Origin: Salinadaptatus halalkaliphilus
GTDB lineage: Archaea; Halobacteriota; Halobacteria; Halobacteriales; Natrialbaceae
Direction: 5' to 3'
Assembly: GCF_006543045.1 (NCBI RefSeq)
Contig: NZ_RBZW01000055.1
Location: forward strand, 1-64,000
DNA: 64,000 nt
In this document: positions 26,159 to 37,613 of the stretch, piece by piece
How the letters are laid out: each line of letters starts with the position of its first letter
Numbering within the stretch: the stretch's first letter is position 1
Notes under the pieces: generated by a model
Databases searched by the model: none
Seen by the model: the letters and a program-made list of their open reading frames with translations, nothing else
What the model was told of the DNA's origin: nothing
Program-made: the position numbers and the translations under genes

Positions 26159-26176
26159 TGGTTGTATTCACTGGAT

Positions 26177-27184
26177 GTGACCAACAATAATATTCAGTCA
26201 GGTAAGAGGCGAACATTACTGAAAAGTATCCCTGCAGTGGGCGCGTCCTTCACACTCGGTGGAGTTGCGAGCGGCCGAGCAGCGGCGTCGAACGACGATA
26301 GCGTCGTCCAACTCGGCGAGTTTAGTGATGGTCGTGACGGATGGAAAACGACTTTTAGAAATGATCTCGAGCGTATCAGCGACGAGGAGATGCCAAGCAC
26401 GGTCCAGGTCGGTTCGCACGCACTTGGTGTCGAAATTGATGGTGGCCGTCATCCGCGAATTATAAACAAAAAACGCGTGAAAAAGGCAGATTTTACCGAA
26501 CATCCGTATCTGATGGCCCACGTCATGGGGTACGCAGCAGAAACAGAGTCGGATCTGGTATTCACGTTCCGACTGTACCACACTGCGCTATCTACGGACG
26601 CTCATGCGCAAACACACTCCGACTCCGACACGAAATCCGTAGATGAGTTGGAAGAACAATACGATCTCGATGACGTCGATCACAGTGAGACGGACGCATC
26701 CATCCAGACGAGTTCCAGAGGAGTACTCCCTGTCGAAGAGTCTACGGAGAAGACGGTTTCACAACTCACACCTACTCGACTTCGATGGGATCTGTCCGAT
26801 CTCGACGACGACATCCTCGAGAGCGCCTGGCTCCTCGAAATCGTCTGGTACCTCGAGGACCATCCACCGTGGTATCACCGACTCGATACCGACCGGCGAT
26901 TCGAATACGAGGGACTCGTCGCGTTCGACGATATCAGGTTGACCGACGACAAATCCGAGAGCGAATCGGCCGCGAGTCGAACCAAGCAGCGAAAACTCCA
27001 CCGAAACCACGGGGCGGTCGTGAACAGGACGCTCGAGGAACACGGCGAGGATTTCGAGGCAGGGACGGTCGAATTCGCCGACGGAGCCGAAGTCTCGTAC
27101 ACCTTTGAGGTGCTCGGTGACGGACAGTTTCGGTATACGATCGATGGCGAGGCGTTCGACCTCGGAGGTGAAGTGAATGACTGA
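26177..27184 (+). CDS. Tat-exported hypothetical protein, first gene of the accessory block
   Basis: 335 aa from GTG 26177; TTG at 26162 is also in frame, but the TATA spacing favours GTG. Tat signal: GKRRTLLKSIPAVGASFTLGGV with twin Arg, then an Ala-rich cleavage region GRAAAS. The mature part opens with VVQLGEFSDGRDGWKTTF, a phrase typical of lectin-like or carbohydrate-binding beta-sandwich domains, and ends GDGQFRYTIDGEAFDLGGEV. A linker around 140-195 is Ser/Asp/Glu-rich. Probably extracellular. It overlaps the next gene by 8 bp, so the two are translationally coupled. Function unknown. Confidence 0.7.
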   Translation: MTNNNIQSGKRRTLLKSIPAVGASFTLGGVASGRAAASNDDSVVQLGEFSDGRDGWKTTFRNDLERISDEEMPSTVQVGSHALGVEIDGGRHPRIINKKRVKKADFTEHPYLMAHVMGYAAETESDLVFTFRLYHTALSTDAHAQTHSDSDTKSVDELEEQYDLDDVDHSETDASIQTSSRGVLPVEESTEKTVSQLTPTRLRWDLSDLDDDILESAWLLEIVWYLEDHPPWYHRLDTDRRFEYEGLVAFDDIRLTDDKSESESAASRTKQRKLHRNHGAVVNRTLEEHGEDFEAGTVEFADGAEVSYTFEVLGDGQFRYTIDGEAFDLGGEVND

Positions 27185-28023
27185 GTCACCGATCGCCGTC
27201 TCCGAGGGAGTCGATACCAACCGCAACGAAAGAACGATCTCGTCGGAGGACGGCCAGCTCGAGACAGCAACGGAACTGTCGGAGAACGGGACTGACGAGT
27301 ACGTGCTCGTCCTTCGGCACTGTCACCTGGTCGACTACGAGGGGTACATTACCGGAAGCGTCCTCGACGAACTCGATCAGGGGCGGTGTGGCTGGATTTA
27401 TGCAGGACATCTCAGAGCGGCTAAGCACCGATGCTCCCGGATTCATCAGTGACATCTGGGACTGGGGGACGATCGGCGAGACGGCTGCTAGACTAGCGTT
27501 GATGAGTGCCCCACAGCGGGTCGAATTCTTCCTCAACGCATCGACAGCCGTTCCCAGAACGTGGACGTTCATCGACTTCATCGTCCTCGCCGACGGTCGC
27601 CGGTACGCCAGGGTCTGGGATGCGAGCCAGTATCCGTCGCTGTACACGTACGTGGATGGCACCCTACGCAAGAAAGAAGATATGGACTACGAGCCGAAGC
27701 AGTTGTGGAACCGATCGATGTTCGCATTCCACATGAGAGCGAGTGCAGGAGCGACGCCGTACAATATCGCGCCGCTGACGCAGTTCCAGGCGATGCTTCG
27801 AACTGGTCCCGATGCCGACCTCTGGAACCAGTATCGTGAACGAATCGAAGAGACCCTCGAGGCGCTGGAAATCGGCTGGAGCGCGAGCGAACTCCTTCCC
27901 ACGACGCCGCGAGTAACGGTCGGCTTCGACGCGGACGGTGAACCGATCGACGATCCGGACGCACCATTCCCACCGGCGGAAGCCCTGATCGTCCCGGTAG
28001 CAGACACCTTGCCACCGAATTGA
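27177..28023 (+). pseudogene. frameshifted partner gene in the accessory block
   Basis: One gene split into two frames. The first frame (ATG 27177) encodes about 68 sensible residues to ITGSVLDELDQG, then becomes arginine/histidine-rich and stops near 27452. The second frame carries GGVAGFMQDISERLSTDAPG and then 200 coherent residues to TAA at 28021. Removing one G from the GGGG at 27380-27383 joins them into about 281 aa. The downstream part (RVEFFLNASTAVPRTWTFID, LADGRRYARVWDASQYPSLY) looks like a soluble alpha/beta protein; no family is recognised. No signal peptide. Either a recent inactivation or a sequence error. Confidence 0.65.
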
Positions 28024-28084
28024 CAGATCGAAGCAGCATTCCGCGTCGCGCTACAACGTCCGAATAAGGACTGACCATCAGGTC

Positions 28085-29161
28085 GTGAATATCAATCGCC
28101 GCTCCCTGCTGTCGACGATTCCAGCCGCCGTCATCAGCGGCGGGTGTACTAAGAGGAGTGACACACAAAGCTCCGAGTTCGAACCCGATTACGACCGATT
28201 GCGCTGGGAGTACGGCACCGATGGTCGCGTCGCCTCGTCGCCAACGATCAGTGATGGTCATCTACTCGTTGGGAGTATGGATGGTCGTCTTCGTGCTCTC
28301 GATCCGTCCACAGGCGCGCTCAATTGGGCATTCGAAGCTGAAGATGGGATCTGGTCGAGTCCGATGGTCGACGATGGTGTTGTGTACGTTAGCAGTCTCG
28401 ATTCTACTCTCTACGCTCTCGAGACTGACGGAACAAAACGATGGGAGTTCGAGACCGGCGACAGCATCTGGAGTAGCCATCCCACGATTGACAGTGGGAC
28501 CGTATACGTCGGTAGCTCGGATGCGCACGTCTACGCCGTTTCCGCTGACACAGGCACCGAACAGTGGGCGTACGAGACCGATGGTGGCATCTTCGCCGGT
28601 CCAACCGTCCACGACGGCATCGTCTACGTCGGCAGTCAAGACGATTCACTCTACGCACTCGAGGGGGACACGGGTGAACAAGTGTGGGAGTTTTCGACCG
28701 AAGGTCACGTCGATGTTGAGGCAGCTGTCAGCGGAAACCAGGTCTTCGTCGGATCGAAAGATGGGCGTTTCTACGCGATCGATCGGGAGGATGGGAGCGA
28801 AAACTGGTCGCTGGATACAGGCAGCAAGATTAATTCAGCACCAACGATTTGGAGAGATACCGTATACGTCGCAACTCGATTCTCGTCGCTCTATGCATTG
28901 GACCCCGAAACCGGCGGCGTGAACTGGGCCAACGAGACACCAATCAGCCCGATTAATGCAGATCCAGTTATCGTAGACGGAGTTGCATATCTCGGTGATC
29001 GAGTCGGATACCTTCACGCGTTCGATGCCAAATCTGGAACCCATAACTGGAAATTCGAAACAGGAAATGCAGTCCATTCGTCACCGGTCGTCACCGACGA
29101 CACCATCTATTTCGGGAGTAACGACACCTACATTTACGCGATCGAGCACCCGTCGAAATGA
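28085..29161 (+). CDS. PQQ-type beta-propeller Tat lipoprotein, copy 1
   Basis: 358 aa from GTG 28085. Tat signal with lipobox: NRRSLLSTIPAAVISGGC, so Cys21 should carry a lipid anchor outside the membrane. Eight blades of about 40 aa follow, each with a variant of D..LYALD..TG...W.F, closed by the first strand DRLRWEYG: an eight-bladed PQQ/WD-like propeller. Without quinoprotein dehydrogenase residues it is likely a binding or scaffold protein (BamB/Pqq_2 class). Residues about 27-115 are nearly identical to copy 3, the central blades differ, and the last blade is again nearly identical. Its stop overlaps the start of copy 2 (ATGA). Confidence 0.88.
   Translation: MNINRRSLLSTIPAAVISGGCTKRSDTQSSEFEPDYDRLRWEYGTDGRVASSPTISDGHLLVGSMDGRLRALDPSTGALNWAFEAEDGIWSSPMVDDGVVYVSSLDSTLYALETDGTKRWEFETGDSIWSSHPTIDSGTVYVGSSDAHVYAVSADTGTEQWAYETDGGIFAGPTVHDGIVYVGSQDDSLYALEGDTGEQVWEFSTEGHVDVEAAVSGNQVFVGSKDGRFYAIDREDGSENWSLDTGSKINSAPTIWRDTVYVATRFSSLYALDPETGGVNWANETPISPINADPVIVDGVAYLGDRVGYLHAFDAKSGTHNWKFETGNAVHSSPVVTDDTIYFGSNDTYIYAIEHPSK
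28165..28424 (+). repeat. near-identical direct repeat shared with PQQ copy 3
   Basis: This segment matches 30403-30662 (offset 2238) with a single difference (T at 28365 versus C at 30603) that I could find by eye. Identity then drops quickly on the 3' side. Such a sharp island inside diverged paralogues points to recent gene conversion. Confidence 0.8.
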
Positions 29162-30246
29162 GCCCTAACGATACTGCGCTGACCCGACGCAACCTGCTAT
29201 CGACGATTCCAGCCGCCGTCATTAGCGGCGGGTGTACTAGGAGGAGTGACGAACAAAGCTCCGAGTTCGAACCCGATTACGACCGATTGCGCTGGGAGTA
29301 CGGCACTGATGATCGAGTAACCTCGTCACCGATAAGCAAAGACGGACAGTTATACGTTGGAAGCCATGATCGGTGTCTCAGGTCACTGGATGCGGCTACT
29401 GGATCGCTACAATGGAAATTCGAAGTCGGAGGGTCGATTTGGTCGGATCCGGCAATATCCGAAGATACAATTTACATTGGAAGTCGTGATCACAACCTCT
29501 ACGCTATCGATACGTCAGGTAGAGAACAGTGGCGGTTCCAAACCGACGACACTATCACTAGTAGCCCTACGATTCATAACGGGATAGTTTACATTGGGAG
29601 TTCCGATGAGAATGTATATGCGGTCGACGCTACGTCCGGAACGCAGCAATGGGTACAGCCGACGCAAGGTCGTGTAATAGCGAAACCAGCAGTAGATAAT
29701 GGAGTCATCTTCATCGGCAGCACTGACGGTTCATTGTATGCGCTTGATGCGAACAGTGGCGGTATCGAGTGGAAATATTCGACTAATGGACCAATATTTA
29801 CAAAAGCAGAAATTGTAAATGACTTAGTGCTTCTTGGCTCTAGAGACGGGAATTTTTATGCTTTGGATAGCCGCGATGGATACGAAGTCTGGTCGTACAA
29901 CACTGGTAACTCGATCACCGGACCACCACGCGTCTCTGAAGATACCGTGTATTTTGGAACCACTGACGTTCCAGCGTTCTATGCAGTCAATGCGAAAACT
30001 GGTGATAAATACTGGAAAAGCGACGCAATAGAAGGCCATATCGATTCGCGACCAGCGGTTACGGATGGCTACGTCTATATTGGAGCAAGTAGAGGGTATC
30101 TTCACGTTCTCAACGCTGAAACTGGCGATCAGAATTGGGCGTTCCAAACTGCGAATAAAATAGGATCGTCACCAGTCGTGACGGATACCACCGTCTACGT
30201 CGGCAGCAACGACACGTACATCTACGCCATCAAGCGGGAGGAATAA
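29158..30246 (+). CDS. PQQ-type beta-propeller Tat lipoprotein, copy 2
   Basis: 362 aa; ATG at 29158 overlaps the TGA of copy 1. TRRNLLSTIPAAVISGGC is the Tat signal and lipobox. The first 60 residues match copies 1 and 3; the blades then diverge (for example RCLRSLDAATGSLQWKFEVG, NVYAVDATSGTQQW, FYALDSRDGYEVWSYNTG). The 3' half is clearly A+T richer than the flanking copies. The last blade ends VYVGSNDTYIYAIKREE, parallel to copies 1 and 3. Eight blades; presumed extracellular lipoprotein. Confidence 0.88.
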   Translation: MSPNDTALTRRNLLSTIPAAVISGGCTRRSDEQSSEFEPDYDRLRWEYGTDDRVTSSPISKDGQLYVGSHDRCLRSLDAATGSLQWKFEVGGSIWSDPAISEDTIYIGSRDHNLYAIDTSGREQWRFQTDDTITSSPTIHNGIVYIGSSDENVYAVDATSGTQQWVQPTQGRVIAKPAVDNGVIFIGSTDGSLYALDANSGGIEWKYSTNGPIFTKAEIVNDLVLLGSRDGNFYALDSRDGYEVWSYNTGNSITGPPRVSEDTVYFGTTDVPAFYAVNAKTGDKYWKSDAIEGHIDSRPAVTDGYVYIGASRGYLHVLNAETGDQNWAFQTANKIGSSPVVTDTTVYVGSNDTYIYAIKREE

Positions 30247-30322
30247 CGAGAACAACGACAGTGCCACTTCTATTCGGAGGTATTTTACCAGCACGAACTC
30301 GCGTTCAACCTCCACGACTGCC

Positions 30323-31414
30323 ATGAACCCTACCCGACGAGAACTGCTGTCGGCGATTCCAGCTGCCGTCATCAGCGGCGGGTGTACGACGATGAGTGAC
30401 GAACAAAGCTCCGAGTTCGAACCCGATTACGACCGATTGCGCTGGGAGTACGGCACCGATGGTCGCGTCGCCTCGTCGCCAACGATCAGTGATGGTCATC
30501 TACTCGTTGGGAGTATGGATGGTCGTCTTCGTGCTCTCGATCCGTCCACAGGCGCGCTCAATTGGGCATTCGAAGCTGAAGATGGGATCTGGTCGAGTCC
30601 GACGGTCGACGATGGTGTTGTGTACGTTAGCAGTCTCGATTCTACTCTCTACGCTCTCGAGATTGACCGAACGAAACGATGGGAGTTCGAGACCGGCGAT
30701 AGCATCTGGAGTAGCGACCCTACGGTCAATACTGGAACTGTATACGTCGGTAGCTCCGATGCGCACGTCTACGCCGTTTCCGCTGACACTGGCACCGAAC
30801 AGTGGGCCTACGAGACCGATGGCGGCGTCTTCACCGGTCCAACCGTCCACGACGGCATCGTCTACGTCGGCAGTCGGGACGATTCACTTTACGCACTCGA
30901 GGCCGACACGGGCGAACAGGTGTGGAAGTTTTCGGCCGGCGGACACGTAGATGTAGAAGCAGCCATTTATGAAGACCGGATTCTGGTTGGATCAGAGGAT
31001 TTGGTTGGAGAGAGGGATACTCATTTTTATGCGATCGACCGTCACGACGGACGTGAGATCTGGTCGATAGATACGCACCGTGGACTCAATTCCGCGCCAG
31101 CGATCGTCGACGGAATCGCGTATTTCGGCGGTCGAAACAGTATGGTGTACGCAGTGGACATCGAGACGGGCGCATTCGTCTGGACGAGTGACGAGGTCGG
31201 TGGTGGGATCAACTCCGATCCCCTGGTCACCGAGGGCACCGTCTATATCGGCGAAAATCACGGCTATCTCCGGGCGTTTGACGCTGCAACTGGTGAGCTC
31301 CAGTGGACGTTCAAAACGGGCAATGCAGTCCATTCGACACCGGTCGTCACCGACGACACCATCTACTTCGGAAGCAACGACACCTACATTTACGCGCTCG
31401 AGCGCCCTTCGTAA
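30323..31414 (+). CDS. PQQ-type beta-propeller Tat lipoprotein, copy 3
   Basis: 363 aa from ATG 30323. TRRELLSAIPAAVISGGC signal/lipobox. Blades 1-4 nearly equal to copy 1. The fifth region has a short insertion (EDLVGERDTHFYAID) not in the other copies. Blades 6-7 (NSMVYAVDIETGAFVW, GYLRAFDAATGELQW) are distinct, and the final blade GNAVHSTPVVTDDTIYFGSN again equals copy 1. Stop TAA overlaps the ATG of truncated copy 4. A 76-bp spacer separates it from copy 2. Confidence 0.88.
   Translation: MNPTRRELLSAIPAAVISGGCTTMSDEQSSEFEPDYDRLRWEYGTDGRVASSPTISDGHLLVGSMDGRLRALDPSTGALNWAFEAEDGIWSSPTVDDGVVYVSSLDSTLYALEIDRTKRWEFETGDSIWSSDPTVNTGTVYVGSSDAHVYAVSADTGTEQWAYETDGGVFTGPTVHDGIVYVGSRDDSLYALEADTGEQVWKFSAGGHVDVEAAIYEDRILVGSEDLVGERDTHFYAIDRHDGREIWSIDTHRGLNSAPAIVDGIAYFGGRNSMVYAVDIETGAFVWTSDEVGGGINSDPLVTEGTVYIGENHGYLRAFDAATGELQWTFKTGNAVHSTPVVTDDTIYFGSNDTYIYALERPS
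30403..30662 (+). repeat. near-identical direct repeat shared with PQQ copy 1
   Basis: Second member of the 260-bp repeat described at 28165-28424. Covers codons just after the lipobox through the second blade. Confidence 0.8.
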
Positions 31415-31737
31415 TGAGTTCCAACGACACCGCGCTGAGCCGACGCAGGCTGCTGTCGACGATCCCAACCGCCGTCATTAGCAGCGGGTGTGCGACGATG
31501 AGTGACGAACAATCCTCCGAGTTCGAACCTGATTACGACCGACTGCGCTGGGAGTACAGCACTGACGGTCGCATTCCGTCCAGGCCACTACTCAGCGATG
31601 GACGGCTCTATTTTGGCAGTAGGGATGGGAAGTTCCGTGCGATAGATGCGTTCACTGGGTCGCTGGAGTGGTCGTTCGCTACTGATGACAAGATAACCTC
31701 GAATCCAATTCTCCACGCAGGAAGTCTGTTCCAGTAA
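31414..31737 (+). pseudogene. PQQ-type propeller lipoprotein, copy 4, truncated
   Basis: 107 aa from ATG 31414. Complete Tat signal (SRRRLLSTIPTAVISSGC) and the shared FEPDYDRLRWEY start, then about two blades ending in TSNPILHAGSLFQ and TAA. Full copies have 358-363 aa, so about 250 residues are missing. The stop TAA lies inside CAGTAAACCGTATCA (31732-31746), which equals the right end of the dispersed palindromic element. The break therefore coincides with that sequence. No downstream blade remnants are seen. Confidence 0.75.
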
Positions 31738-31746
31738 ACCGTATCA
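31732..31746. repeat. solo end of the dispersed palindromic element
   Basis: CAGTAAACCGTATCA matches the right outer arm of the 85-bp repeat family (compare CAGTAAACCGTATGA at 57461-57475). It contains the stop codon of PQQ copy 4. No other part of the element is visible here. Confidence 0.55.
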
Positions 31747-31796
31747 CACATCGTCGCGTTCGTCGATTTTTTATCGACACCCGTGCGTTCTACTGT

Positions 31797-32126
31797 ATGG
31801 TCGAGAATCCGTTCGACGTCGAAATTCGCGTTGGATCCGTCCTCGAGGCCGAGGCCTTCCCCGAGGCGAACAAGCCGAAGATGACGAAATTGTGGATCGA
31901 TCTGGGCGATGACCACGGTGAGATCCAGTCGGCCGCACAGCTCGATCACCACTACGATCCCGACGACCTCGAGGGTCGACAGGTGTTGTGTGCGACGAAC
32001 CTGGGATCGGTTCGGATCGCGGGTTTCAAATCCGAAGCGCTGACGGTCTGTGTGCCAGGAGACCAGGAGTATCCAGTGCTCGTCGAACCCGACGAGGCGG
32101 TCCCGCTGGGTGGATTGTTGTTCTGA
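31797..32126 (+). CDS. tRNA-binding (EMAPII/CsaA-like) domain protein
   Basis: 109 aa, start ATG 31797. An OB-fold of the Trbp111/CsaA/MetRS C-terminal class: FDVEIRVGSVLEAEAFPEANKPKMTKLWIDLG, then VLCATNLGSVRIAGFKSEALTV and VLVEPDEAVPLGGLLF. Stand-alone forms act as a tRNA-binding cofactor or as CsaA-type secretion chaperones. Length matches the family. A gene of normal G+C immediately follows the accessory block, so the block ends near 31746. Confidence 0.85.
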   Translation: MVENPFDVEIRVGSVLEAEAFPEANKPKMTKLWIDLGDDHGEIQSAAQLDHHYDPDDLEGRQVLCATNLGSVRIAGFKSEALTVCVPGDQEYPVLVEPDEAVPLGGLLF

Positions 32127-32173
32127 TCGATCTCGACAGGCCGGACCGATGGCGGCGTGGGAATCAACAGCAA

Positions 32174-32182
32174 GAATATACG
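32174..32182 (+). promoter_or_regulatory. TATA box of the APC permease/Usp operon
   Basis: GAATATACG centred about 27 nt before the ATG at 32205. This spacing supports the ATG at 32205 over the upstream GTG at 32157 and implies a leaderless transcript. Confidence 0.4.
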
Positions 32183-32204
32183 TTCTGCGAAAAACGAAGT
32201 CGAC

Positions 32205-33626
32205 ATGGGTGAAACATCGTCGCCGCCCGAGGGGGCCAACATCGAGGGCGAATCCCCGCAGATCGAACCGACGATCGAGACTGACGAGGCGACGATCACC
32301 GACGACAGCGAACTCGAGCGGACGCTCGGCCTGACCGGCGGGCTCGCGATCGGTATCGGGACGATGATCGGCGCGGGGATCTTTGTCTTTCCCGGCCTGG
32401 CGGCGGATCAAGCCGGACCCGCGGCGTCGGCGTCGTTCGCCATTGGGGCCGTCGTCGCCCTGCTCGTCGCGTTGCCGGCCTCGGAACTGGCGACGGCGAT
32501 GCCAAAGAGTGGCGGCGGCTACTACTTCATCTCGCGCGGGCTGGGAACGCTCGCTGGGGCCGTCGTCGGCCTCTCGCTGTGGTTCGGGCTGGTCTTCGCG
32601 ACGGCCTTCTATCTCGTCGGCTTCGGTTACTACGCGGTCGATACGCTGGCCGAACTCGGGATCGCGGTCGGGGAGGGACTGGTCATTCCGATCGCCCTGC
32701 TGTTCGGCGCGGGGTTTACCGTCCTCAACGTCACCGGGACCGAGAACGCGGCGAAGCTCCAGAACGGAATCGTCGCGCTGTTGCTCTCGATTCTGGTCGT
32801 CTTCCTCACCTACGGCGGACTCGACGCGGCCGGAATCGTGGGCGAATCGAGCACGCCGGAGCAGTTCGCACCCGATGGAGTCTTCCCCATATTCACGACC
32901 GCCGCGCTCGTGTTTACCTCCTACCTCGGCTTCGCACAGGTGGCGACCGTCGCTGGCGAAATGAAGGATCCGGGCCGGAACCTGCCGCTTTCGATGGTCG
33001 GCTCGGTGCTCGTCGTCGGCGTCCTCTACGTGCTGACGATCTTCGTTGCGACCAGCGGGCTCGGGAGCGACACGCTTGGCGACCTCGGGGAGACGGCGAT
33101 GGTCGAGGTCGGCCGCCACTACCTCGGTCCAGTCGGGGCCGTTGCGATCGTCTTTGGTGGTCTGCTGGCGACGATGTCGAGCGCCAACGCCTCCGTGTTG
33201 AGCACGTCCCGGTCGATCTACGCCGTCTCGAGGGACGCGTTGTTACCCCAGCGGGCGAGTCGCATCAATCTCCGCTATGGCACCCCACACGTCGCCCTGG
33301 GGATGGCTGGCGGCCCGATCCTCGTCCTGACGGCGACCGGACGCGTCGAACTGCTCGCGGAGGTCGCCTCGTTCCTCCATCTCGTCATGTACGGCCTGAT
33401 CTGCGTGGCGCTGATCGCGTTGCGCCGCGACGAACCGGAGTGGTACGACCCCGACTTCCGGGTCCCCGGCTACCCCATCGTCCCGGCGCTGGGCGCGATC
33501 TGTAGCTTCGCACTGATCGCGTTCATGCAACCCGCCTCACGATACGTCGGCGCTGGAATCATGCTTCTTACCGTCGTCTGGTACGTCTACTACGCCCGCG
33601 ACATCGAGCTGAAAGGTGCACTATGA
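32205..33626 (+). CDS. APC-superfamily amino acid permease
   Basis: 473 aa from ATG 32205. A hydrophilic acidic N-terminus (about 45 aa) precedes twelve TMs. TM1 carries the unwound [15 protein letters not shown] motif of LeuT-fold amino acid carriers, and later [14 protein letters not shown] and [19 protein letters not shown] agree with the family. Substrate unknown. The stop overlaps the start of a universal stress protein by 4 bp (ATGA), so the two are one operon. Its relative at 35376 carries Usp domains in the same chain. Confidence 0.88.
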
Positions 33627-34357
33627 CACGCATACTCGTTCCACTGGCGATACTCGAGGGGGAATCGGTCTCGGCTGGACTCGTCGATCTGCTCGAGCCG
33701 ATGGACGTGACCGTGTTGGGCTATCACGTCCTGCCCGAACAGACGCCGCCCGACCAGGCCCGATTGCAGTACGAGGAGCGCGCGACCGACGCGCTCGAAG
33801 ACCTCGCAGCGGAGTTCGGGGCCGAAGCGGGGACCGCCGACTATCGGCTCGTGTTCACCCACGACCGAAAACAGACAGTCGATCGCGTCGCCGACGTGAC
33901 TGACGCGGGCGTCTACGCCATCCCGGGCGCGACGGGACCGGTCGAACGGCTCCTCGTGGCACTGACCGGCGATGTCGCCGTCGATCGGATCGTCTCGTTC
34001 GTCGGGGAACTCGTCGGGGACCGTGATATCGCCGTGACGCTCTTTCTGGCGACCGACGACGCCTCCGGCGGCCGGGAACTGCTCGAGACGGCTACGACGC
34101 CGCTTGTGGATCAGGCAATCGACGTTCGAACTGAACTCGCGGTCGACGAGCCGCCGCTCGAGGCGCTCGTCGATGCGGCAGTCGACCACGACGCGATCGT
34201 CATGGGTGAACGCGCACCGTCGTTGCGGACGCTGGTCTTCGGTGAGGAGGCCGAACGCGTCGCCGCCGAGTCCGTCGGTCCGGTGCTGGTCGTCCGACGT
34301 GGTGAGGACGACGAAACCACCGCTGCCGAGGAACCTACATCACTCGAGGAGTCGTGA
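33623..34357 (+). CDS. universal stress protein (UspA family), two-domain-length
   Basis: 244 aa. Begins [22 protein letters not shown] and has a late nucleotide-binding-like segment [35 protein letters not shown], equivalent to the G2xG9xS/T motif but with Glu instead of the Gly pair, so ATP binding is doubtful. Translationally coupled to the permease gene; probably modulates it. Stop TGA at 34355-34357 is the first triplet of a partial dispersed-repeat copy. Confidence 0.85.
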
Positions 34358-34398
34358 TGCGGATTGCTGTACCGATGTGCCGGCGGTACGTCGAACTG
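34355..34398. repeat. partial copy of the dispersed palindromic element (copy B')
   Basis: TGATGCGGATTGCTGTACCG followed by ATGTGCCGGCG resembles the left half of the element; the right half is missing. It abuts the complete copy at 34401, and its first three bases are the stop codon of the UspA gene. Confidence 0.65.
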
Positions 34399-34400
34399 TG

Positions 34401-34485
34401 TGATACGGATTGCTGTAACGATTTACCGGCGCAACCGCGACCCGGGCGGCGGTTGCGCCGGTACTGGCTACAGTAACCCGTACGA
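34401..34485. repeat. dispersed palindromic element, copy B
   Basis: Outer left arm TGATACGGATTGCTGTAACG, inner arms ACCGGCGCAACCGC and GCGGTTGCGCCGGT (perfect complements), outer right arm ACAGTAACCCGTACGA. Located between two convergent Usp genes (stops at 34357 and 34507). Confidence 0.85.
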
Positions 34486-34506
34486 GTCGACTCGGTCCGT
34501 ATCGCG

Positions 34507-35244
34507 CTACGTCTCGTCCTCAAGATATTCCCCGCGAATTACCAACACCGGGTCGACAGTGCCCTTGGCCAGGCTCTTCGCTCGGTCTTTGAAGATGAAC
34601 CGACGCACTGACGGTCGGCTCTCGCCGACGACGAGCAGGTCGTGATCGTCTGCCGCCTCGAGAATCGCCCGCGTCGGAGAGCCGTCGACGACGAGCGAGG
34701 TGTCGATTCGCTGCCGATCGACGCCGGTGTCTGCAAGGGTCGCTGCTGCAGTCTCGAGGAGTTCGGCCCGCTGGTCGCGCTCGTCTTCGTCGGAGACGAC
34801 GTGAAAGAACGTCACCGAGAGGTCGGTGCCGGCGAGCAACACGCCGAGGAACCGGGCGATATACTCGAGGTTGACCCCGCCGCGGAGGGCGACGAGCACC
34901 GACTCGAGAACCGGCGCGGGGTTCAATACGACCACCGCGTCACACGCCGCCTCGAGTGCGACGCGTTCGAAGGTCTGTAGTCGGTCGTGCGTAAAGACGA
35001 GTCGCGTCGTGACGTCGAGACAGCCCGCGTCCTCGAACACGTCACGAAGTTCCTCGAGTTCGGCGCGAGCGCGTCGTTCGTACTGATCGCGTGCCTGATC
35101 GGTCCCGATCTGGTCGGGTATCTCTCGATACGCCAGCAACACGACCGGGACCGACGCGAACGCATCGATTACCGTTTGGGGAACGGTTTCGCCCCCGAGG
35201 ACGTCGACCGGGACGAGCACGCGGTACTCTCGAGTCGAAGACAT
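34507..35244 (-). CDS. universal stress protein (UspA family), two-domain-length
   Basis: 245 aa. Paralogue of the 33623 protein: RVLVPVDVLGGETVPQTVID at the N-terminus, shared ARDQYERRARAELEEL and [19 protein letters not shown] segments, and C-terminal HDLLVVGESRPSVRRFIFKDRAKSLAKGTVDPVLVI. Here the G-x-S-like loop is present only in weakened form. It lies upstream of, and in the same direction as, nothing obvious; it is convergent with the other Usp gene and stands 131 bp from the end of the permease-Usp fusion gene. Confidence 0.85.
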   Translation of the reverse strand: MSSTREYRVLVPVDVLGGETVPQTVIDAFASVPVVLLAYREIPDQIGTDQARDQYERRARAELEELRDVFEDAGCLDVTTRLVFTHDRLQTFERVALEAACDAVVVLNPAPVLESVLVALRGGVNLEYIARFLGVLLAGTDLSVTFFHVVSDEDERDQRAELLETAAATLADTGVDRQRIDTSLVVDGSPTRAILEAADDHDLLVVGESRPSVRRFIFKDRAKSLAKGTVDPVLVIRGEYLEDET

Positions 35245-35375
35245 CTCGGTCGTTCCTCTACAACGGTCCGCGGTAAATACCCCTGGCAGGTGGCGGTCCG
35301 TGCGTCTCGGGCCGAGATCGGACAGACGGGACAGTAGGCGGCCGTCGCCGGATGTGATCGACGGGAAAAGCAGGG

Positions 35376-37613
35376 TTAGGTCGAATCCCGATCGGCGAAT
35401 CGGCGGAGTCGACGCCAGAGACGTCGCGTCATTGGCACCTGTACCCCAGGTTCCTTCACGACGAGGACCGAGGTGTCAGTCTCGGCGGCGACGTAGTCGG
35501 TCGTCTGGCCGAAGAACTCGCTCATCCGGTCGGGACGAGTGGGCGCACCCATGACGAGCAGATCAGCCTGATTAGCCCGCCTGACGAGCGCGTCGTCGAC
35601 GCTCGCCGCGTGGAGGAGTTCGGTCTCGGCGGGACTCGAGAGCAGATCCGTGAGGTCCTCGAGGTACGCCTGGGCGGACGTCGCCGCTTCCTCGGAGGCG
35701 CCCTCGGGGATTGCCTTCAACAGCGTCAGGTTCGCGCCCGTTACAGTGGCAACGGCGTCGGCCAGTTCGACTTCGGCCTGATCGTAGGGCCCAGTCTCGG
35801 TCGCGACGACGATGTCACTGATCTCATCGGTCCCTCGCGGTTTCAGGACGGCGAGTCGAACCGGGAACTTCGAACGCAGAATCTCGTCGACGTGGCTCTC
35901 CTGTAAGTGGTGTTTTCGGATGGGGTCCTGCCAGTCGACCAGCACCAGTTCGGTTCGGTCGTTGACGCTCTCGAGGAGGGCGTCGGTCTGATCTCGCGTT
36001 CGAACGTGATCGAAGAGGACGACGTGATCGTCCAAGGCGAGGTCGCGTTCGATGTGATCCATCCAGTCGTCGTCGACGTCGTGTTCTGCTTCGGCGAACG
36101 GAACGTGGGACGGAACCTCCGTGACGGTGAGAACGTCGAGGTCGGCGTCGAAGCGGTCGACGAACGAGCGCATCGCCGTGAGCAGATGTGGATTCGTTTC
36201 GCCCTCGACAGTCTCGACGAGGATGTGCGGACCGCCGGTGGTCAGGTTACCAATCTGGGACCGCTTTTCCTCGAGAGAGCGCTGGTACTGAGCACCGAGG
36301 ACCTGATCGCGAATGTCGTGATCGGGTTGGACCGGTCGACCGGTTCGAGTCTGGACGTAGTACCAACCGACGCCAACCAGTACGAACCCGATGGCGGTGA
36401 TCTGGGAGAGCAAGCCCATGAACGGGATCAACAGGAGTGCGGCAGCCGCGCCGGCAAGCGGGAGGATCGGCGAGAAGGGGACCTCGTAGTCCGGGTCGTA
36501 CCACTCCGGCCGGGAACTGCGAAGCAAGACGACGGTAACGTTGAGCAACGCGAACACGAGGATACCGAAGGTCCCGCCCAGTTTCGCGAGCATTTCGACG
36601 TCGAGCAGCAAGGCGAGTACGATCATGATCCCTCCCGTCAGCCAGATAGAGACCGTCGGCGTTCCAAAGCGAGCCGACGACTCGCTGAGTTTCGGCGTGA
36701 CGAGCCCGTCCCGCGACATCGCGAAGGGGAATCGTGAGGAGGAGAGTACGGCTGCGTTAGCGGTCGAAACCGTCGCGAAGATACCGGCGAGCGCGATGAC
36801 TGCACCGCCGAGCGCGCCGAGGAAGAGCCCGCCAGCCTCGGCCACCGGGGCCGAGCTATCGGCGATGTCCGCGATCGGCATCACCCCGGTGACGATCAGC
36901 ATGACGCCGACGTACAGCAGCGTCACGAAGATCACGGCCGCAAACAGTGCCCGCGGCAGCGTCGTTCCTGGATCCTTGACCTCCTCGGCGACCGCGGTCG
37001 CCTTGACGATCCCCAGATAGGAGATGAAGACGAGTCCGGTCGTCGTGATCACGCCGTCGACGCCTGTCGTAACGAACGGCGACCAGTTGTCCGTATTCGA
37101 CGCCAGCAATCCGCCGCCGGCGAAGACCGCCAGAATTGCGACGAGACCGATGACGACGGCGTTCTGGAGCTTGCCGGACTCTTCCGCACCGATCCAGTTG
37201 AGCAGCGTCAGCAAGAGCCCGCCGACGACCGCAACCGCGAGGACGGGAACCGCCCAAAACTCGGTGACGTACCAGCCAAGCCCGACGAGTGCGAACGACC
37301 CCTTGAAAATCAGCGCGAGCCAGGCACCGAATCCCACGACGGTCCCGACGAGCGGCCCCATCGCACGGCTCGTGAAGAAATAGGGGCCGCCGGCTCGAGG
37401 CATCGCCGTCGCGAGTTCGACCGCACACATCGTCGCGACGAGTGCGATCAGACCTGCAATTCCAAAGGAGAGTGCCGAAGCGGGACCCGCCCCCTCTGCG
37501 GCCGGTCCCGGGAGGACGAAGATTCCGGCCCCAATCATCGTCCCGGAGGCGATCGTAAACACCGCAAAGACGCCGAGGTCACGCCGTAAATCCGAGTCGC
37601 TTCCGTGGCCCAT
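35376..37613 (-). CDS. amino acid permease (APC) fused to two C-terminal Usp domains
   Basis: 745 aa. Residues about 10-420 form a twelve-TM APC carrier ([21 protein letters not shown] in TM1; AVAEEVKDPGTTLPRALF). The C-terminal 300 residues are cytosolic: one Usp-like domain about 455-590 (PHILVETVEGETNPHLLTAM) and a second about 595-735 ending DLLVMGAPTRPDRMSEFFGQ then TDTSVLVVKEP, which has a GAP...S-type nucleotide loop. Such fusions are known in archaea and are thought to couple transport to nucleotide or stress signals. The neighbouring operon keeps the same pair as separate genes. Confidence 0.9.
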   Translation of the reverse strand: MGHGSDSDLRRDLGVFAVFTIASGTMIGAGIFVLPGPAAEGAGPASALSFGIAGLIALVATMCAVELATAMPRAGGPYFFTSRAMGPLVGTVVGFGAWLALIFKGSFALVGLGWYVTEFWAVPVLAVAVVGGLLLTLLNWIGAEESGKLQNAVVIGLVAILAVFAGGGLLASNTDNWSPFVTTGVDGVITTTGLVFISYLGIVKATAVAEEVKDPGTTLPRALFAAVIFVTLLYVGVMLIVTGVMPIADIADSSAPVAEAGGLFLGALGGAVIALAGIFATVSTANAAVLSSSRFPFAMSRDGLVTPKLSESSARFGTPTVSIWLTGGIMIVLALLLDVEMLAKLGGTFGILVFALLNVTVVLLRSSRPEWYDPDYEVPFSPILPLAGAAAALLLIPFMGLLSQITAIGFVLVGVGWYYVQTRTGRPVQPDHDIRDQVLGAQYQRSLEEKRSQIGNLTTGGPHILVETVEGETNPHLLTAMRSFVDRFDADLDVLTVTEVPSHVPFAEAEHDVDDDWMDHIERDLALDDHVVLFDHVRTRDQTDALLESVNDRTELVLVDWQDPIRKHHLQESHVDEILRSKFPVRLAVLKPRGTDEISDIVVATETGPYDQAEVELADAVATVTGANLTLLKAIPEGASEEAATSAQAYLEDLTDLLSSPAETELLHAASVDDALVRRANQADLLVMGAPTRPDRMSEFFGQTTDYVAAETDTSVLVVKEPGVQVPMTRRLWRRLRRFADRDST

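Follow-up and report, generated by a model that had tools for sequence, protein, structure and literature searches.

A tandem array of propeller lipoprotein genes in Salinadaptatus halalkaliphilus carries a layered mosaic of exchanged segments

Closest described systems

In Archaea, partial gene conversion between paralogues that lie side by side has been described for mtrA-1 and mtrA-2 of methanogens, operon mates in which one part has been homogenised by gene conversion while another has been kept distinct (PMC4632066). The array of four tandem propeller genes described here (c1 to c4, collectively C) joins this known kind. The mtrA case, however, concerns very long-lasting conversion across many species and genes of known function, whereas here the exchange involves exported propellers, four copies and a single genome. 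The VARTIG loci of Thermococcales likewise are archaeal loci for exported, recombining proteins, with a large upstream gene and variable downstream genes; they differ in their Ig domains, in exchanging DNA between species and in that no within-locus recombination was found there (PMC8416519). Here, in contrast, propellers exchange DNA within the array of one genome. The VARTIG hallmark, a large protein with Ig domains of which the C-terminal one is hypervariable, was absent, as neither the C genes nor the two genes ahead of them (A and a fragment of B) gave an Ig-domain match.

Propeller-repeat genes that recombine and evolve in concert have been described as the hnwd family of Podospora anserina, a set of fungal genes for recognition inside the cell whose WD repeats are nearly identical and change in number, and whose specificity has been tested (PMC2873952). 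In the array, the blades within one gene are diverged and the repeat number is constant among the full-length copies. Propellers are also amplified continuously from single blades (PMC9218822), which is likewise propeller evolution via DNA duplication; in the array, however, multi-blade segments move between genes, and blades of the same gene show no fresh amplification. Chimeric propellers can hence arise through several blades moving at once. BamB, finally, has the same eight-blade fold and a lipoprotein-like start, but c1-c3 reach only 172-203 bits with the BamB equivalog TIGR03300, below its cut-off of 285.2. Archaea are not known to have a BAM complex.

The array and its proteins

The array spans positions 28085-31737 of the window (the whole stretch of 64,000 nucleotides that was analysed) and belongs to a 4.5-Mb haloarchaeal draft genome of 77 contigs. 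It consists of four tandem genes on the plus strand that encode PQQ/BamB-like propeller lipoproteins with a Tat signal, the last gene being truncated (Table 1). Among the genomes compared, the genus is represented by this one only.

Table 1. Positions, in window coordinates, of the array genes, the genes ahead of them and the shared tracts.
Feature	Position	Strand	Description
Gene A	26162-27184	+	340 aa, Tat-type signal; homologues open A-B-C modules in G090, G068 and G006
Short ORF	27177-27452	+	Overlaps the stop of A, the site where relatives start gene B
Gene B, C-terminal part	27388-28023	+	211 aa; B has 681-797 aa in G090, G068 and G006
c1	28085-29161	+	358 aa, GTG start; Pfam PF13570, PF13360; alignment
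c2	29158-30246	+	362 aa; 4-base overlap with c1; A+T-richer blades
c3	30323-31414	+	363 aa; modelled with eight blades
c4	31414-31737	+	107 aa, covering the leader, all of blade 1 and roughly half of blade 2
Tract 1 in c1	28106-28725	+	620 bp, 93% identical to 30344-30963 in c3 (self-blastn)
Tract 1 in c3	30344-30963	+	Self-blastn
Youngest tract, c1	28165-28424	+	1 difference in 260 to 30403-30662; dS 0
Youngest tract, c3	30403-30662	+	Counterpart of 28165-28424
Tract 2 in c1/c2	29048-29315	+	From the last blade of c1 across the gene overlap into the c2 leader; 86.6% identity with 31304-31571
Tract 2 in c3/c4	31304-31571	+	Last blade of c3, gene overlap, leader of c4

In all four sequences a twin-arginine motif can be read directly, as can a lipobox-like cysteine, so that c1-c4 are predicted to be exported and lipid-anchored. 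The signal is followed by PQQ_2 / Beta-prop_ACSF4 repeats, with PF13570 and PF13360 above the cut-off in c1-c3. An AlphaFold2 model of c3 (pLDDT 89.5) is an eight-bladed propeller, counting the blades from the strand list; a strand at residues 39-44, right after the leader, completes blade 8. Among solved folds, the designed Cake proteins and BamB come nearest to this model, and the C proteins are most plainly taken to be exported, anchored surface binding scaffolds. A scan of a collection of genome contigs returned distant propellers only, and viral contigs gave no match. Contig C25 of the same genome carries a separate propeller gene (L065 39-992) at a contig end, with an assembly gap inside; several of its blades are 88-90% identical to one another in DNA, indicating a recently amplified propeller.

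Exchanged tracts

The relationship between c1 and c3 changes abruptly along the genes. Past approximately codon 201 their DNA similarity drops to 50-60%, and the protein identity goes from 92% in blades 1-4 to 49% in blades 5-7 and back to about 90% in blade 8 (26 of 29 residues, with synonymous differences at 4 of 26 codons). The proximal halves are nearly the same, whereas the distal halves have diverged roughly as much as genes from different genera. Inside the 620-bp tract lies the 260-bp one, whose sole difference is a T/C at position 28365. Differences amount to 7/59 before it, 1/260 within it and 29/276 after it, and the excess in the flanks is significant on either side (Fisher 3.7e-5 before, 3.8e-8 after). 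Because both flanks are significantly more diverged, the 260-bp tract represents a younger event within an older one. Indeed, dS runs from 0.00 in the youngest tract through 0.34 in blades 3-4 and saturation in blades 5-7 to 0.31 in blade 8, and the exchanges in the array comprise at least two age layers (dS 0 and approximately 0.3).

This mosaic exceeds what chance or protein constraint would give. The longest run of shared polymorphic sites between c1 and c3 was 54/480 (permutation p = 1e-4, the lowest value the test can give), and max-chi2 on synonymous codons only placed a break near codon 201 (p = 5e-4, again the test floor). One could argue that purifying selection on the leader, the early blades and the last blade produced the pattern with zero DNA exchange, since the blade 8 protein is conserved across genera (79-83% identical to that of G073), and protein conservation does contribute in part to the likeness of the last blades of c1 and c3. 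Yet synonymous codons follow the same pattern, with differences at 1/62 in blades 1-2 as against 22/33 in blades 6-7, the max-chi2 break persists on these codons, and blades 1-2, whose identity to those of relatives is only about 50%, are thus not unusually constrained. We consider the chance of this explanation negligible; as sole cause of the mosaic, protein conservation is ruled out by the synonymous-site and permutation tests.

The earlier note on this DNA had described the one-difference stretch of 260 bp, and exactly so. Its statement that the central blades of c1 and c3 differ was borne out by the blade-wise identities, whereas ‘near-identical’ was slightly generous for a last blade that is alike at about 90% of its residues. 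Also correct were the common leader and A+T-richer blades of c2 (48.2% G+C, compared to 55-57% in c1, c3 and c4 and 62.9% in the window) and the truncation of c4, which ends at 107 aa. The proposed origin of the mosaic in DNA transfer between the tandem copies is visible at synonymous sites; the events number at least two and differ in age, and the synonymous-site and permutation tests rule out even divergence over the length of the genes.

A mosaic of this kind might also result from a short-read assembly in which the distal halves of c1 and c3 were swapped across the 260-bp repeat, and the genome is indeed a draft in 77 contigs. Such a swap would not itself produce similarity, however, the repeat is short and positions 27000-32000 hold zero N characters, which makes an artefact extremely improbable.

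The second tract, which was absent from the earlier note, has 36 differences in 268 positions and crosses the c1/c2 and c3/c4 junctions. In the alignment, moreover, c2 and c4 alone have in common a longer start, MSxNDTALxRR. Together, tract 2 and the shared start suggest that a unit of two genes is present twice, as c1-c2 and as c3-c4. In the leader core, by contrast, all pairs among c1-c4 are similarly close (dS 0.18-0.39); since a single unit duplication would not give such equal closeness, leaders have been exchanged among all four genes.

We hold it to be quite probable that a small tandem family of exported, membrane-anchored eight-bladed propellers, located downstream of a reduced A-B module, expanded by duplication of a two-gene unit and was then subject to repeated, ordinary ectopic gene conversion. 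The unit would first have been duplicated in this lineage, giving c1-c2 and c3-c4. The members of the family would then have exchanged DNA more than once by ectopic gene conversion, a homologous and non-reciprocal form of recombination. The sites would be the leader, the first four blades and the last blade together with the following gene start, with blades 5-7 either left out of the exchange or replaced by diverged DNA. Recombination is expected only between stretches that are still alike, and leader, first blades and last blade as exchange sites fit with this limit. The exchange events are deduced from one draft genome; in Haloferax volcanii, gene conversion between the genome copies is efficient (PMC11276520). 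Unit duplication, and gene conversion as the enzymatic route, are the likely components, and part of the pattern could be due to unequal crossing-over or to blade import from other lineages.

A different history would be a recent duplication of the c1-c2 unit (dS ~0.3), after which interior blades were swapped for DNA of diverged relatives by crossovers in the constant ends, affecting c1 or c3 in blades 5-7 and c2 (or c4) in its blades generally. On this view, the constant parts would be what is left of the duplication, and the variable parts would be imports. The similar dS of proximal blades 3-4 and blade 8 (0.34 and 0.31) speaks for this history, as do the G+C content of the c2 blades (48%, versus 56% in c4) and the presence of C in relatives on a plasmid beside conjugation genes. 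Trees of the propellers that include relatives in other genera and in a second family bear on it as well. For blades 1-4, c1 and c3 are sisters with 100% support, and a tree separating them was rejected (AU p 2e-4). For blades 5-7, the best tree put c1 near the type of G287 and the Haloarcula plasmid and c3 near G073/G417. This lean is no more than suggestive of an origin of the distal halves of c1 and c3 in two different lineages, as its bootstrap values are 0.30 and 0.19 and a tree joining c1 and c3 had an AU p of 0.33. Furthermore, exchange among the four genes is required in any case by the equal closeness of the leaders in all pairs, and a later conversion is required by the 260-bp tract. 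We therefore regard this alternative as unlikely, though not far-fetched, and prefer unit duplication with repeated gene conversion.

Relatives and the A-B-C module

The loci fetched from relatives hold one C gene each, a single-copy status that derives from these loci and from genome searches in which limited candidates were scored per genome. So far as the compared genomes show, the array is an expansion in this lineage. Two decayed C copies occur in G063 (L069 6220-6733 and L070 7084-8171), one without its central blades and out of frame, the other frameshifted; the gene order around the copy without central blades is as around the intact gene of G073.

The earlier note had gone further and proposed a combinatorial system that shuffles blades between copies to generate surface-protein variants. 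In its favour, the interior blades differ while the ends are common, and more than one exchange event occurred. An exchange blade by blade is not supported, however: the young tract stops within blade 2 (near residue 113), the long one shortly after blade 5 begins, and tract 2 spans a gene border. Nor is the generation of variants supported, since the latest event homogenised c1 and c3. Nor do the fetched relatives, with single or in some cases decayed copies, look combinatorial, and looking over the ORFs beside the array we noticed no recombinase or store of donor cassettes. An expression site with silent donor cassettes was likewise not found, the array consisting of three full-length ORFs with their own starts and one truncated copy. 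We judge such an active variation system very improbable. The array most probably reflects real gene conversion between duplicates, in a clean, layered case among archaeal exported propellers; a built-in variant-making machine is not supported.

In G090, G068 and G006 the C gene closes a fuller module, in which it follows a Tat-signal protein A and a B of full length. The window has A, only the C-terminal part of B, and C in multiple copies. Several other genomes have C with a B fragment only, or without A and B within the fetched stretch. The B fragment of the window is 44% identical over 213 residues to a B-like ORF preceding C in G417 and 34% identical to residues 600-757 of the G090 protein. 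From its position alone, the short ORF behind A is possibly a remnant of the B start; tblastn with full-length B as query gave no convincing match there. The product of A had no Pfam or NCBIfam match. On A and B, no Pfam family scored above the cut-off, with weak GATase-like matches near the start of B. The defence-system library gave no match for A, B or C, and the A-B-C module, although conserved in haloarchaea, is without a name in the libraries used. Its loci are at 26162-28023 in the window and at L071 3645-8064, L073 4357-8896 and L123 6746-11074.

In Haloarcula sp. CBA1115, C (L138 6025-7080) is plasmid-borne, in the company of type IV secretion/conjugation genes; part of its neighbourhood there also surrounds C in G260, G143 and G305 (L118, L119, L120). 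It is hence a lipoprotein that travels with conjugation genes, and perhaps a surface or entry factor. These observations point to an uncharacterised exported three-gene haloarchaeal module, the propeller part of which occurs on plasmids with conjugation genes and which is a candidate player in recognition or conflict between cells. A more specific proposal, which we rate as decidedly unlikely, is that A-B-C is an undescribed haloarchaeal surface conflict/recognition module with C as its variable partner; C would spread on conjugation-gene plasmids and be diversified by the collection of divergent C genes in an array, where they would recombine via their constant ends, i.e. the leader with the closing strand and the last blade.

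Elsewhere in the window, at 32157-37613, two genes that look amino-acid-permease-like adjoin universal-stress-like genes, named by the look of their sequences alone (32157-33626 with 33623-34357, and 35376-37613 with 34507-35244).
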